64,000 bases of DNA from Caldibacillus thermoamylovorans (lineage in GTDB: Bacteria > Bacillota > Bacilli > Bacillales > Caldibacillaceae): positions 124,001 through 188,000 of the forward strand of contig NZ_CCRF01000061.1 in NCBI RefSeq assembly GCF_000751775.1, read 5' to 3'. Made by a program: the position numbers and the translations under genes. Position 1 is the stretch's first letter. Each line of letters begins with the position of its first letter. The notes beneath the pieces were generated by a model, which had not been told where the DNA came from, made no database searches, and was given only the letters and a program-made list of their open reading frames with translations. Shown here one piece after another: positions 3,476-63,087 of this stretch.

Positions 3476-3632
3476 ATAAAGTGAAACTTCCATCAGCGGT
3501 GGTTTTGTTCATCCACCACTAATGGTTAGTTGAACTAATCGGACCTTTACGGGTAGCTCGTTCCCCACCTATCTTCTTTGTAAACTAGAAAATCTTGAGA
3601 TAGGGGTGTTTCTACCCGTTAAGGTGGGATAT
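3476..3632. repeat. Structured interspersed element, copy A (R1 family)
   Basis: An element of about 155 bp begins GTGAAACTTCCATCAGCGG and ends ACCCGTTAAGGTGGG. The 5' hairpin arms CCATCAGCGGTGG and CCACCACTAATGG pair at 11 of 13 positions. Downstream, ACGGGTAG (3549-3556) is complementary to CTACCCGT (3612-3619), and CCTATCTT and GAGATAGG pair inside that stem. Related copies lie at 8070, 47718 and 62941, with a junction fragment at 35836. It sits in the ndk-cheR gap and contains no gene. Confidence 0.8.
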
Positions 3633-3663
3633 AACGGAAACAGACTGGTGAAGGGATTTCTCG

Positions 3664-7931: not shown

Positions 7932-8069
7932 CGTATGTTCCTCCCTATATGAACTGCAAATTCCTGATAGATTATAATTAAAACAAAACAATATTTAATT
8001 TTAATCTATTTCATATTAGCACATTGGAACATATGGGGCAAAAAAGAAAGACCGTAAAAAAACGCTTAA

Positions 8070-8225
8070 TAAAGTGAAACTTCCATCAGTGGGGCTCTAA
8101 CCCACTGATGGTTAGTTGAACCAATCGGGCACTTACGGGCACTTAGGGGTAGCCCGTCCTTATCTATCTTCTTTGTAAATTCGAAAATCTTGAGATGGAG
8201 GTCTTGACTCGCCGTTAAGGTGGGA
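8070..8225. repeat. Structured interspersed element, copy B (R1 family)
   Basis: This is the best-preserved R1 hairpin: CCATCAGTGGG and CCCACTGATGG pair perfectly over 11 bp with a 7-nt loop, 8083-8111. It is followed by the conserved GGTTAGTTGAACCAATCGG and the inner CTATCTTCTTTGTAAA core, and it ends CGTTAAGGTGGG. It fills most of the 369-bp folE-hbs gap; the rest is the hbs terminator and short AT-rich sequence. Confidence 0.8.
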
Positions 8226-8237
8226 AAAATTCCGTGG

Positions 8238-12116: not shown

Positions 12117-13154
12117 TCATTCATTTTGTAAAATGTTGACTAAATCCTCCATCTCATGTGTCTTTTTTCTTGTCATTAATTCATCAACAGCTGCTTTCGG
12201 ATTTAAATTTTCAAACAGCACTTTATATAATATGATTGAAATTGGCATATTGACTTGATATTTTTCTGCCAATTGATAGGCTGCTTTTGTTGTGCGAACT
12301 CCTTCAACCGTTTGTCCCATGTTATGTAAAATCTCCTGCAAACTTTCTCCTTTACCTAATGCGTTTCCGGCTCGCCAGTTTCTCGAATGCACACTCGTAC
12401 ATGTTACAATTAAATCACCAATTCCGGTCAATCCGGAAAAAGTGAGCGGATTCGCCCCCATCTTTGTCCCAAGACGGGCAATTTCGGCAAGTCCTCTTGT
12501 CATTAATGCGGCTTTGGCATTATCCCCATAACCGAGTCCATCTGAAATACCTGCTGCAAGGGCAATAATATTTTTCAATGCCCCGCCGATTTCAACACCG
12601 ATTACATCCGGATTTGTATAGACCCGGAAATTCGTATTCATAAATAATTCTTGAACCATTTCAGCTGCTGCAAGATTTTCCGAAGCAACTGCAACCGTTG
12701 TCGGGTGGCGCAGACTTACTTCCTCAGCATGGGAAGGCCCGGACAGAACGACAATATCTTTCAATAGATATTCAGGAACTTCCTCTTTAATTATTTCGGA
12801 AACGCGCTTTAAAGAACCGGGTTCAATTCCTTTACATACATGAACGATCGTAACCGGATTCTTTATATAATTTAATAATTTTTTCATCACTTCCCGGACA
12901 GCTTTTGTAGGGACTGCGACAATAATGATTTCACAGTTTTTAATTGCTTCCTCTAAATCATGATAAGCAATTATCGTTTCCGGCAGTAAAATATCCGGTA
13001 AATAATTTTCATTCATTTTCGTTTGATTGATTTTTTCTGCTTGTTCCTTATGATAACTCCATAACCGTACATCATGCCCGTTGTCGGCAAGAACAAGGGA
13101 AAGTGCAGTTCCCCAGCTTCCGGCACCTAATACGGTTAACGTTTTATTCGTCAT
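12117..13154 (-). CDS. gpsA: NAD(P)H glycerol-3-phosphate dehydrogenase
   Basis: This 345-aa cytoplasmic enzyme reduces dihydroxyacetone phosphate to sn-glycerol 3-phosphate for phospholipid synthesis. The Rossmann motif [11 protein letters not shown] is at the N-terminus. [11 protein letters not shown] is near residue 140, [16 protein letters not shown] near 190 carries the catalytic Lys, and [12 protein letters not shown] is near 250. ATG 13154 is preferred over the upstream GTG because AAAGGAG is 8 nt away. It follows der by 13 nt, so the two are probably cotranscribed. Confidence 0.96.
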
Positions 13155-13167
13155 TTTCTCCACTCCT

Positions 13168-14478
13168 TTATTTTCTAGCTCGCGGAATGATTCTAATCGG
13201 GGTTCCTAAAAATCCGAAAGCGTCCCGGATCCGATTTTCTAAAAAACGTTCATAGGAAAAATGCAGTAATTCCGGGTCATTTACAAACAAAACAAAAGTT
13301 GGAGGCTTTACGGATACTTGGGTTATATAATAGATTTTCAGCCGTTTCCCTTTGTCCGTTGGTGTCGGATTCATGGCAACCGCATCCATAATCACATCGT
13401 TTAACACATTCGTTTGTACTCTCAGTGAATGATTTTCACTGACGAGTTTAATCATCGGGATCAATGTATGTAACCTCTTTTTTGTTTTTGCGGAAACAAA
13501 AACGATCGGTGCATAATCAAGAAATAAAAATTGATTACGTATTTTCTTTTCAAATTCATTCATTGTTTTTTCATCTTTTTCAATGGCATCCCATTTATTA
13601 ACGACGATGATGACTCCGCGTCCGGCCTCGTGAGGTAACCCCGCAATCCGTTTATCTTGTTCAATAATTCCTTCTTCAGCATCGATAACAACAAGAACCA
13701 CATCAGAACGTTCAATTGCTCGTAACGCACGGAGGACCGAATATTTTTCCGTACTCTCATAAACTTTCCCTTTTTTACGAATTCCTGCCGTATCCATTAT
13801 GACATAGTTTTGCCCTTCATATGTATAAGGTGAATCGACCGCATCTCTTGTTGTCCCGGCAATATCACTGACAATTACCCGTTCTTCACCCAATATTGCA
13901 TTGACTAAAGAAGATTTACCGACATTTGGCCTGCCAATTAATGAAAATTTAATAACATCCTCGTCGTAATCCGCATCAGCTTTATTTGGAAAATGTTTCA
14001 CAACTTCATCGAGTAAATCACCAAGACCCAGACCATGACTTCCGGAAATCGGAAACGGGTCCCCGAATCCTAATGAGTAGAAATCATAAATTTGATCACG
14101 CATTTCCGGATTATCCACTTTATTGACCGCTAAAACAACCGGTTTCTTTGAACGGTATAATATTTTCGCCACCTCTTCATCAGTCGCCGTCACACCGTCT
14201 CTACCGCTTGTTATCATAATGATCACATCTGCTTCATCAATGGCAATTTGTGCCTGCCAGCGGATTTGTTCGAGGAACGGTTCGTCTCCGATATCAATTC
14301 CACCGGTGTCGATAATATTAAATTCAACATTTAACCATTCTCCTTTTCCGTAAATACGGTCTCTTGTCACACCGGGGACATCTTCCTCAATTGAAATACG
14401 TTCCCCGACGATTCTGTTAAATATTGTTGATTTACCGACATTTGGCCTGCCAACTATAGCTACTACTGGCATTGACAT
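13168..14478 (-). CDS. der: Ribosome-associated GTPase Der (EngA)
   Basis: This 436-aa essential 50S assembly GTPase has two tandem G domains: GRPNVGKST near residue 10 and GRPNVGKSS near 183. Each has a DTGG or DTAG switch and an NKxD motif (NKVDN, NKWDA). A C-terminal KH-like domain ends in [13 protein letters not shown] 14478 follows GAGGTG; an in-frame GTG three codons upstream is less well spaced. It precedes gpsA. Confidence 0.97.
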
Positions 14479-20286: not shown

Positions 20287-20458
20287 TAGGATCCCCTCTC
20301 CAAAATCATTCTTCTCTATCATCATTATGACATGGTAAAGGGAAAACAGCAATTTCCTTTAAGAATTCCGGACAAATTTATCCCAACTTAACGGCAAGTC
20401 AATGATCAAAAGAAAAGTGGGAGAGGGACCCGCCCCATGCGTCCGATTTGTTCAGTAA

Positions 20459-20489
20459 ACACTCAGTGGGTAAACTTCCCACTGAGTGA
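20459..20489 (-). terminator. sleB-ypeB transcript terminator
   Basis: CACTCAGTGGG and CCCACTGAGTG form a perfect 11-bp stem with a 7-nt loop, about 15 nt after the ypeB stop. The following U-tract is short (GTTTACTG). The AAACTTCCCACTGA piece faintly resembles the R1 5' hairpin. Confidence 0.6.
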
Positions 20490-20501
20490 AGTTGACATTA
20501 T

Positions 20502-34372: not shown

Positions 34373-34433
34373 GATTGTTTAATGGCAGGTTAAATAAACG
34401 TCCTGAAATGAAAACAGAACAAACCGAAACCTC

Positions 34434-34566
34434 CATCTTCTCCCATCCAGACTATACTGTCGGCTTTGGAATCTCACCAAATCCTGTCTAAAAATTAGAC
34501 TCGCGGGCTTAAAGGATACACCCTTATTACCGCCGGTCGGGAATTTCACCCAGCCCCGAAGATGAA
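34434..34566 (-). promoter_or_regulatory. FMN riboswitch (RFN element)
   Basis: On the minus strand the classic RFN core is visible in order: TCTTCGGGGCTGGGTGAAAT, TCCCGACCGGCGGT, AGCCCGCGAGTC, a variable arm, GGATTTGGTGAGATTCC and AAAGCCGACAGTATAGTC, closing with GGATGGGAGAAGATG. The P1 arms ATCTTC and GAAGAT pair at the ends. It senses FMN and drives the downstream terminator. Confidence 0.97.
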
Positions 34567-34699
34567 CCATATTTATTTTTTATTTAATATACTATATAAA
34601 AACAAAATTGTAAAGTAGAAAAACCTACATCCTGCGTATTTTTAGTAAAAAGATAAAATGAAATGGATCTAAAACCTCCGAATGGCCGGGCAAGCTTTT

Positions 34700-47595: not shown

Positions 47596-47717
47596 TCATT
47601 ATATTAAACTATTCCATTGTTATTTTTTCCATAATGAGATTAAGTTATACAGCGACAATAAAATTGCAATTGCAGATACAGTCGGTTCAGGCAGTTTGAA
47701 TATAAACGATTGATTTA

Positions 47718-47826
47718 GTAAAACTTTCGTCAGTACGGGTTTTCCCCGCTAATGGTAGTTGAACCAATCAGGCGCACTTGCGGTCACTGAGCTTCCACCT
47801 TTAGGAGGAGCCTTAGGGCAGGTTAA
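47718..47826. repeat. Degenerate R1 element, copy C
   Basis: AAACTTTCGTCAGTACGGG, TTTTCCCCGCTAATGG and TAGTTGAACCAATCAGGC align with the 5' half of R1 copies A and B. The inner core is replaced by CCACCTTTAGGAGGAGCC. It lies in the 404-bp gap between ribT and lysA; the rest of that gap holds nothing recognised. Confidence 0.6.
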
Positions 47827-47990
47827 TTCCGGAAAAACTCATCAATCCCTCCTATACGAATACCAAGTTTAGTATACGCGGTATTATTTTACAACATTTT
47901 AAGCTATTTTTCTATTATCTCTTTTCAAGTGCCTTTCCACGACAAAAGGAAAATCATTTAACATATTGATAAAAATTACAACAGGCTTCT

Positions 47991-62749: not shown

Positions 62750-62944
62750 ATGAAAAGAGTAGTTTTATCAGGAAAAATATGGGAAGTTCGTAATTTGTTA
62801 AACGTATATGGGAAAAGATACACATATGTTACTGAGTGGATTGACGGGATGGAAAGCAATGGGAAACGCCGAAATTCGGAAGTAACTTACGCGACCATTT
62901 ATCCGTTTCCAAAAAAACCGTTGATGGGGGGAGAAAAAATATAA
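62750..62944 (+). CDS. mciZ: MciZ, mother-cell inhibitor of FtsZ, with C-terminal extension
   Basis: This 64-aa protein's first 35 residues (MKRVVLSGKIWEVRNLLNVY, GKRYTYVTEWIDGM) align closely with B. subtilis MciZ (VVLVGKAWEIRAKLKEYG, then FQYVKDWI). MciZ is a 40-aa sigma-E-controlled peptide that caps FtsZ filaments in the mother cell. Here about 27 extra residues follow, basic and Pro-rich (KRRNSEVTYATIYPFPKKPL). ATG 62750 follows AAGAGGTGG. It is divergent from nudF; an R1 repeat begins at its stop codon, so the extension could partly come from it. Confidence 0.82.
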   Translation: MKRVVLSGKIWEVRNLLNVYGKRYTYVTEWIDGMESNGKRRNSEVTYATIYPFPKKPLMGGEKI

Positions 62945-63087
62945 GGTGAAACGTCCATTTCTGGAGGTTTTCTTCATCCCCACGGATGGTTAGTTGAACC
63001 AGTCGGATGCATACGGCCTTTCTTCTTTGAAAACTTGATGAGGTTGGGTGTTACTACCCGTTAAGGTGGGATAAGGTGAAACTTCCA
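62941..63087. repeat. R1 element, copy D, with head-to-tail junction
   Basis: A unit from GGTGAAACGTCCATTTCTGG to ACCCGTTAAGGTGGGATAA is followed at once by a new GGTGAAACTTCC start. The 5' hairpin CCATTTCTGG with CCACGGATGG keeps pairing through G-T pairs and a single mismatch. Its first bases overlap the mciZ stop codon. Confidence 0.75.

Follow-up and report, generated by a model that had tools for sequence, protein, structure and literature searches.

The window, the whole 64-kb stretch of DNA analysed here, carries several copies of a repeated element, R1, which keeps its base pairing while its sequence drifts. The earlier note on this DNA read the preserved pairing as the mark either of a structured RNA or of the folded ends of a transposon-derived element. 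The locus raises the question of which of the two R1 is and, if it moves, by which route.

Copies and architecture of R1

Within the window, four sites match the conserved block GGTTAGTTGAACCAATCGG at up to 3 mismatches, against 0.01 expected from shuffles. A covariance model built from 48 R1 copies recovers all four gaps in which the same element had been recognized and adds a fifth copy, on the minus strand, that the original count of four had missed. Copies A, B and D are among the 48 model-building copies and match by construction, while C and E lie outside. Copy A (3476-3633, plus strand, 135.4 bits) is a full element composed of a 5' ATAAA (3476-3480), a body (3481-3628) and a 3' five-mer ATATA (3629-3633); the start assigned previously stands, whereas the end at 3632 does not, as the 3' five-mer reaches 3633. 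Its block GGTTAGTTGAACYAATCGG (3524-3542, plus strand) lies between two hairpins, and its stem ACGGGTAG/CTACCCGT around an inner stem can be read directly from the sequence. The same is true of the perfect 11-bp stem that forms the 5' hairpin of copy B, also a full element (8069-8229, plus strand, 109.9 bits). Copy D (62941-63075, plus strand, 78 bits) has a shortened middle; ATAAGGTGAAACTTCCATTCC follows directly and begins another R1 copy, truncated and arranged head-to-tail. Copy C (47713-47837, plus strand, 37.1 bits, E 6e-6) is the most decayed of the window copies, and the newly found copy E (20377-20501, 54.1 bits, E 4.9e-10) is degenerate.

The element is about 155 bp long, with forms of about 54 bp and 220 bp as well. 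On the strand on which it was first read its 5' part consists of ATAAA, GTGAAACTTCC, the hairpin P1 (ATCAGTGGGG...CCCCACTGAT) and GGTTAGTTGAACCAATCGG; its 3' part is the stem P3 (CTTTACGGGCAGT ... ACTGCCCGTTAA) around P4 (CCCCCACCT ... AGGTGGGGG), a short GC-rich tail (e.g. GCGGG, GTGGG) and ATAAA. The opposite strand reads TTTAT, CCC, the long hairpin (P3 around P4), CCGATTGGTTCAACTAA, the short hairpin (P1), AAGTTTCAC and TTTAT. Among the 30 best-scoring copies of the window's own genome, ranked by the same covariance model, TTAGTTGAAC and AATCGG are retained in at least 27. Little besides the ends is left in the forms of about 54 bp, while in those of about 220 bp the loop after P1 is replaced by a module whose small hairpins have TCCTGT loops; long forms with such TCCTGT-like loops lie at L085:4945-5166, L094:1203-1425 and L123:4889-5105. 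Hairpins with ACAGGA loops are found inside the P1 loop of the R1 copies at L053 and L083. The R1-like copy at L120:4313-4555 is a nested or composite element: in its loop region lies, in inverted orientation, the 5' portion of another, sister family (GTGAAACTTACCTTTG hairpin ... AGTTGAACCAATCGG).

Covariation was measured on an alignment (A1) of 48 R1 copies, three from the window and 45 chosen for an exact 19-base block. Of the cells scored for pairing, 87.7% are paired. Two-sided changes affect 25 of the 35 pairs (10/11 in P1, 6/11 in P3) and such cells number 95 against 23.6 in shuffles. None of five covariation measures was reached by shuffles (0/500), and controls with a slid structure were far lower. 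The drift of sequence under preserved pairing that had been described for the window copies is borne out by two-sided changes in all helices except the short GGTT/AACC one, a putative helix; columns 54-72 are nearly invariant because the copies were selected for the 19-base block. The pair formed by columns 78 and 171 is unpaired in 46 of the 48 copies (T-T mismatch) and counts against the structure. Covariation support is nonetheless strong. Both hairpins also fold well when taken as single DNA strands (z -5.2 in copy A, -8.3 in L038).

Distribution, insertion sites and orientation

Further copies are not few, contrary to an outcome that the earlier note had allowed for. The own genome has at least 103 R1 places at E up to 0.001 by the covariance model (150 of 1160 candidates scored) and 47 by blastn with copy A (40 of 107 candidates scored). 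The exact 19-base block is present in at least 113 stretches of named genomes, and the names borne by the 80 stretches listed include Bacillus, Peribacillus, Cytobacillus, Niallia, Neobacillus, Heyndrickxia, Lysinibacillus, Rummeliibacillus, Halobacillus, Paenibacillus and Sporolactobacillus. Matches were found in 140 of 397 genomes and 69 of 135 genera of the window's order, which are low counts because just 7 candidates were scored per genome. The spread is patchy. R1 occurs in 17 of the 61 genomes of a first sample; the own genome has at least 49 matches versus 5 in a genus-mate, and in one genus all five genomes carry R1, four of them with over 40 blastn matches and the fifth with five. 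In one genus, five of the seven genomes searched have their best R1 match at a common place (L375-L379, about 1501-1638). This match is an old relic; it adjoins the ysxC gene (PDB match), and its other neighbour is presumably a hemA-like gene.

No R1 was found in phages, and one stretch among viral contigs holds the exact block. A blastn search of 72,556 plasmids matched 5 records, none of them from the B. cereus group, the number of such plasmids within the 72,556 not being given; no B. cereus-group plasmid was seen either among the best 60 of at least 5000 records matching a plasmid recombinase by tblastn. A short copy with ATAAA at both ends (L185:6000-6095) lies in a 361-kb record labelled as Klebsiella grimontii plasmid pNY3A (CP079755.1), which possibly includes Bacillales DNA. 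Other interspersed repeats were also seen. One of about 124 bp that begins GAAAAGCGCAAGGCGCC (L210:5553-5680) has many copies in G062, G063 and G064; the orthologous locus of G061, G062 and G063 is without it and has ATAAA in the empty site. Another, of about 250-350 bp with GGCGAAGACTCCTGCGG (L387-L406, G345), has about two dozen copies in 400 kb, counted by eye.

The flanks were surveyed in 136 distinct R1 copies with both end motifs recognisable, the 3' motif being defined without ATAAA. The five-mer ATAAA stands at the 5' end of 115 copies, at the 3' end of 112 and at both ends of 97; past these five letters no position is fixed. Variant five-mers are about as common at either end (21 versus 24 of 136). 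At the 5' end, 13 of the 136 copies differ in the first letter of the five-mer, compared with 2 of the 136 copies for the 3' end. Both ends are variant in 6 copies, and in only one of these is the variant the same.

Comparison of filled and empty sites shows that an existing ATAAA gains R1 plus five letters at insertion. Empty sites have a single ATAAA in four of six cases and ATAAC in a fifth. When 400 kb of G061 were compared with 400 kb of G063, 20 elements were tried, five had both flanks matched and all five were absent from the other genome; four of the five empty sites, including that of a 54-bp form, close to a single ATAAA, and the element at 353990 of the G061 stretch has a diverged empty site without ATAAA. 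The flanks of a G046 copy are 94 to 98% identical in G063, where they are joined at one ATAAC, and its site in G062 is empty and four letters shorter. In the filled G046 site the five-mer is ATAAA at one flank and ATAAC at the other; to judge from the letters of this single case, whose junction has two extra letters, one five-mer may have come with the element. Copies in head-to-tail arrays overlap by exactly 5 bp and have the ATAAA in common (e.g. C71:13000-13148 and 13144-13293).

The orientation of R1 is linked to replication. Fork direction was assigned in G061 and G063, near-complete genomes of a genus dense in R1, by taking dnaA as the origin and assuming the terminus half a genome away. 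The counts exclude weaker and unlisted matches and cover 51 short and 25 long forms of 114 matches in G061, 33 of 45 in G063 (including a few long forms) and 12 of 21 in G018. Copies run against the fork in 36/51 short forms of G061 and in 24/33 copies of G063; the figures for G018 (8/12) and for the long forms of G061 (15/25) are not significant. In a set of 60 of 84 copies whose flanks were re-read (40 from G061, 20 from G063), a subset that is not independent of the first count, 42 copies are against the fork (p 0.003). Where the neighbouring genes are mixed the proportion is 20/27 (p 0.02), where both run against the fork 6/7 and where both run along it 14/24, and co-oriented neighbours are opposed by 15 of 31 copies. 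The bias is moderate and is not explained by the neighbouring genes. A copy lying against the fork places the strand TTTAT-CCC...TTTCAC-TTTAT on the lagging-strand template.

RNA or DNA

R1 is almost certainly a mobile element. Of the two possibilities advanced in the earlier note, the folded ends of transposon-derived DNA are favoured by insertion at ATAAA, the empty sites, the ATAAA common to tandem copies, the patchy spread and the replication-linked orientation, while a structured RNA as conserved function of the resident copies finds no support. An RNA of this kind, a regulatory element or small RNA kept for its function in transcripts, would agree with the strong covariation and with the RNA fold of copy A (z -3.7; equally good in 1 of 200 shuffles). 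Maintenance at the RNA level would tolerate G-U wobble but not A-C. Across the R1 stems of A1, however, G-T is not favoured over A-C (54 to 46), though P1 alone gives 21 to 11; the figures are 7 to 8 in P3 and 26 to 27 in P4. Over all pairs of the 110 best rows of a model-fitted alignment, which leans towards the structure, the ratio is 122 to 78. As a control, tRNA genes at the same loci (31 of 37 distinct genes used) give 32 to 2 over the 372 cells of their acceptor and T stems. Misaligned and decayed copies likewise push the G-T/A-C ratio towards one. From this parity it seems that the covariation arises between lineages, via the need to fold for moving, while resident copies drift.

The surroundings of the copies point the same way. 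Rfam at gathering score has no match at any R1 copy of the window, and its match elsewhere in the window is an FMN riboswitch (34431-34567, minus strand, 123.8 bits); with laxer limits at three other loci there is just a microRNA-family match of E 0.78 that lies outside the R1 copies. Orientation is independent of the neighbouring genes, with 25 of 75 copies from many genomes in the same direction, 24 opposite, 12 convergent and 14 divergent. Open reading frames of at least 90 codons are overlapped by none of these 75 copies and by two of 60 in the set from G061 and G063. The absence of all five flank-matched elements (20 tried) from the other species also speaks against an RNA kept in place. 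Intergenic repeats of B. cereus do appear in mRNA, 84/165 and 62/155 in two strains according to the part of PMC3446304 that deals with them, which lends a structured R1 RNA some plausibility. On balance this reading is highly improbable and R1 is a mobile DNA element rather than a conserved RNA in place.

Modes of movement and known systems

The ATAAA target, the empty sites, the common ATAAA, the parity of G-T and A-C and the fork bias together match transposition through single strands of the IS200/IS605 type. R1 is best read as a non-autonomous mobile DNA element moved by such a "peel and paste" reaction with the enzyme supplied in trans, a reading given a probability of roughly 0.6; the single-strand route taken by itself is rated at even odds or slightly better. 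The enzyme would recognise both single-stranded hairpins on the lagging-strand template and cut after TTTAT at each end, releasing a single-stranded circle that would be pasted after another TTTAT. Inserted copies would then decay freely, and the hairpins would be kept because only folding copies can move. Nothing pointed to a benefit for the host. The lagging-strand template is the strand used by IS608 and ISDra2 (PMC5371812 and PMC6006769, in the portions concerned with these elements), and IS200/IS605 orientation is stated in a section of PMC5371812 to recapitulate replication direction. On the proposed active strand CTAA and TTAA precede the hairpin feet, and their TAA is complementary to TTA of TTTAT, a relation reminiscent of the IS605 guide tetranucleotides by analogy and suggestive only. 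Against an IS605 scheme with a loose target, which would lead one to expect variation at a single end, the two ends of R1 are equally variable.

Two other mobile-element mechanisms were weighed. A MITE moved by cut-and-paste or replicative transposition, with a DDE transposase of an insertion sequence acting in trans and a 5-bp target duplication of ATAAA, would also give one ATAAA in empty sites and two in filled ones. Terminal inverted repeats are absent, however, and the ends GTGAAACTTCC and CCCGCATTAACGG, read inward, differ; variant five-mers are not mirrored, the G046 copy shows ATAAA/ATAAC at an ATAAC target, and a replication-linked orientation is not expected of most DDE elements. R1 being a MITE is therefore judged unlikely on these points, even if the similar repeat bcr1 is called a MITE in a passage of PMC3733652 and likened to MITEs in one of PMC3446304. 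An integron-like or phage-like cassette would in turn be a circle that carries a TAA core and uses a tyrosine or serine recombinase to recombine with xTAAy sites, possibly as folded single strands like attC. The head-to-tail arrays with one common ATAAA and the unequal variation of the five-mer's first letter (13/136 at the 5' end, 2/136 at the 3' end) suit it. Hundreds of scattered 5-bp targets would nevertheless be unusual for tyrosine or serine recombinases and no recombinase family recurs near R1 copies at the 113 loci compared, which makes such a cassette rather improbable.

Single-strand transposition calls for an enzyme. The own genome has no TnpB, and its Y1 transposase is represented by one broken fragment, with no intact gene. 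Some Y1 match is present in 14 of 15 genomes; TnpB is absent from four of ten (G000, G010, G032 and G050), and G050, with 31 R1 matches, has neither. Among the 30 Y1 and 30 TnpB loci examined, part of all matches, not one is bounded by R1 on either side and the other alike. Three of these Y1 loci and one of the TnpB loci contain an R1 match at E <0.01, probably by chance in dense genomes. In an all-against-all comparison of 1299 ORFs from 113 loci, no protein family keeps a fixed position beside R1 copies; seven clusters of at least four neighbouring ORFs look by eye like common families and stand at scattered distances. Genomes without the enzyme may hold leftover R1 copies, so an IS605-type enzyme that comes and goes is still compatible with these data. 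A bolder and doubtful proposal makes R1 the first member of a class of gene-less elements, spread over the order Bacillales, that move as single strands and do without Y1 TnpA/TnpB of the IS605 kind, the hairpins and ATAAA being recognised by a host enzyme or an undiscovered one acting at the fork. If that were true, R1 would be a SINE-like parasite of bacterial replication with a mobility system of its own.

R1 is a high-copy mobile element of one bacterial order whose insertion sites are clean and which comes in several lengths; it offers a direct test bed for the movement of gene-less elements at the replication fork. It could also produce false calls of structured RNA in Bacillaceae genomes. 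In the open-licence literature four of its sequence strings occur in no paper, and none of the titles and abstracts listed fits it.

R1 resembles the IS200/IS605 family and its gene-less, PATE-like derivatives in its subterminal hairpins and lack of terminal inverted repeats. The T-rich pentanucleotide by the left end and the lagging-strand orientation bias are further likenesses to this family as it is presented in parts of PMC5371812 and PMC6006769. R1 differs in having neither tnpA nor tnpB and in hairpins that exceed the 20-25 nt quoted in a passage of PMC6006769. REP sequences and BIMEs, which are thought to be mobilised in trans by TnpA-REP (RAYT), share with R1 the many folded intergenic copies, some of them grouped. 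The hairpin foot of REPs is GTAG/GTGG in the description that a section of PMC6006769 gives, whereas CTAA and TTAA precede the feet of R1. A further difference is that the own genome lacks an intact Y1 gene.

BOX elements have a modular build. In pneumococci they are short repeats with strong folding, thought to be parasitic (PMC3049150). Compared by description, R1 is likewise a short, strongly folding repeat of modular build, but it has defined ATAAA ends and is spread over many genera.

The closest description to R1 is that of bcr1, a repeat of the B. cereus group that belongs to group A (bcr1-bcr3); this comparison too is one of descriptions, not of sequences. According to what Okstad reportedly described in 2004, bcr1 is about 155 bp long, has TTTAT at each end and is missing from some loci in related strains. 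In a portion of PMC2267715 its length is 147 or 167 bp. The two have in common a similar size, the TTTAT motif, an intergenic location, tens of copies, conserved folding and the MITE-like label. No candidate for this comparison came from 400 kb of G345, possibly a B. cereus-group genome. Passages of PMC3733652 place bcr1 among elements with terminal inverted repeats, which R1 lacks, and one of PMC6542083 ties its TTTAT motif to mobility and describes it as confined to the B. cereus group, whereas R1 occurs in 69 of the 135 sampled genera of the order. R1 may be related to bcr1 or be an element of like kind that is independent of it, and it is relevant to the claimed restriction of bcr1-like, TTTAT-linked repeats to the B. 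cereus group.
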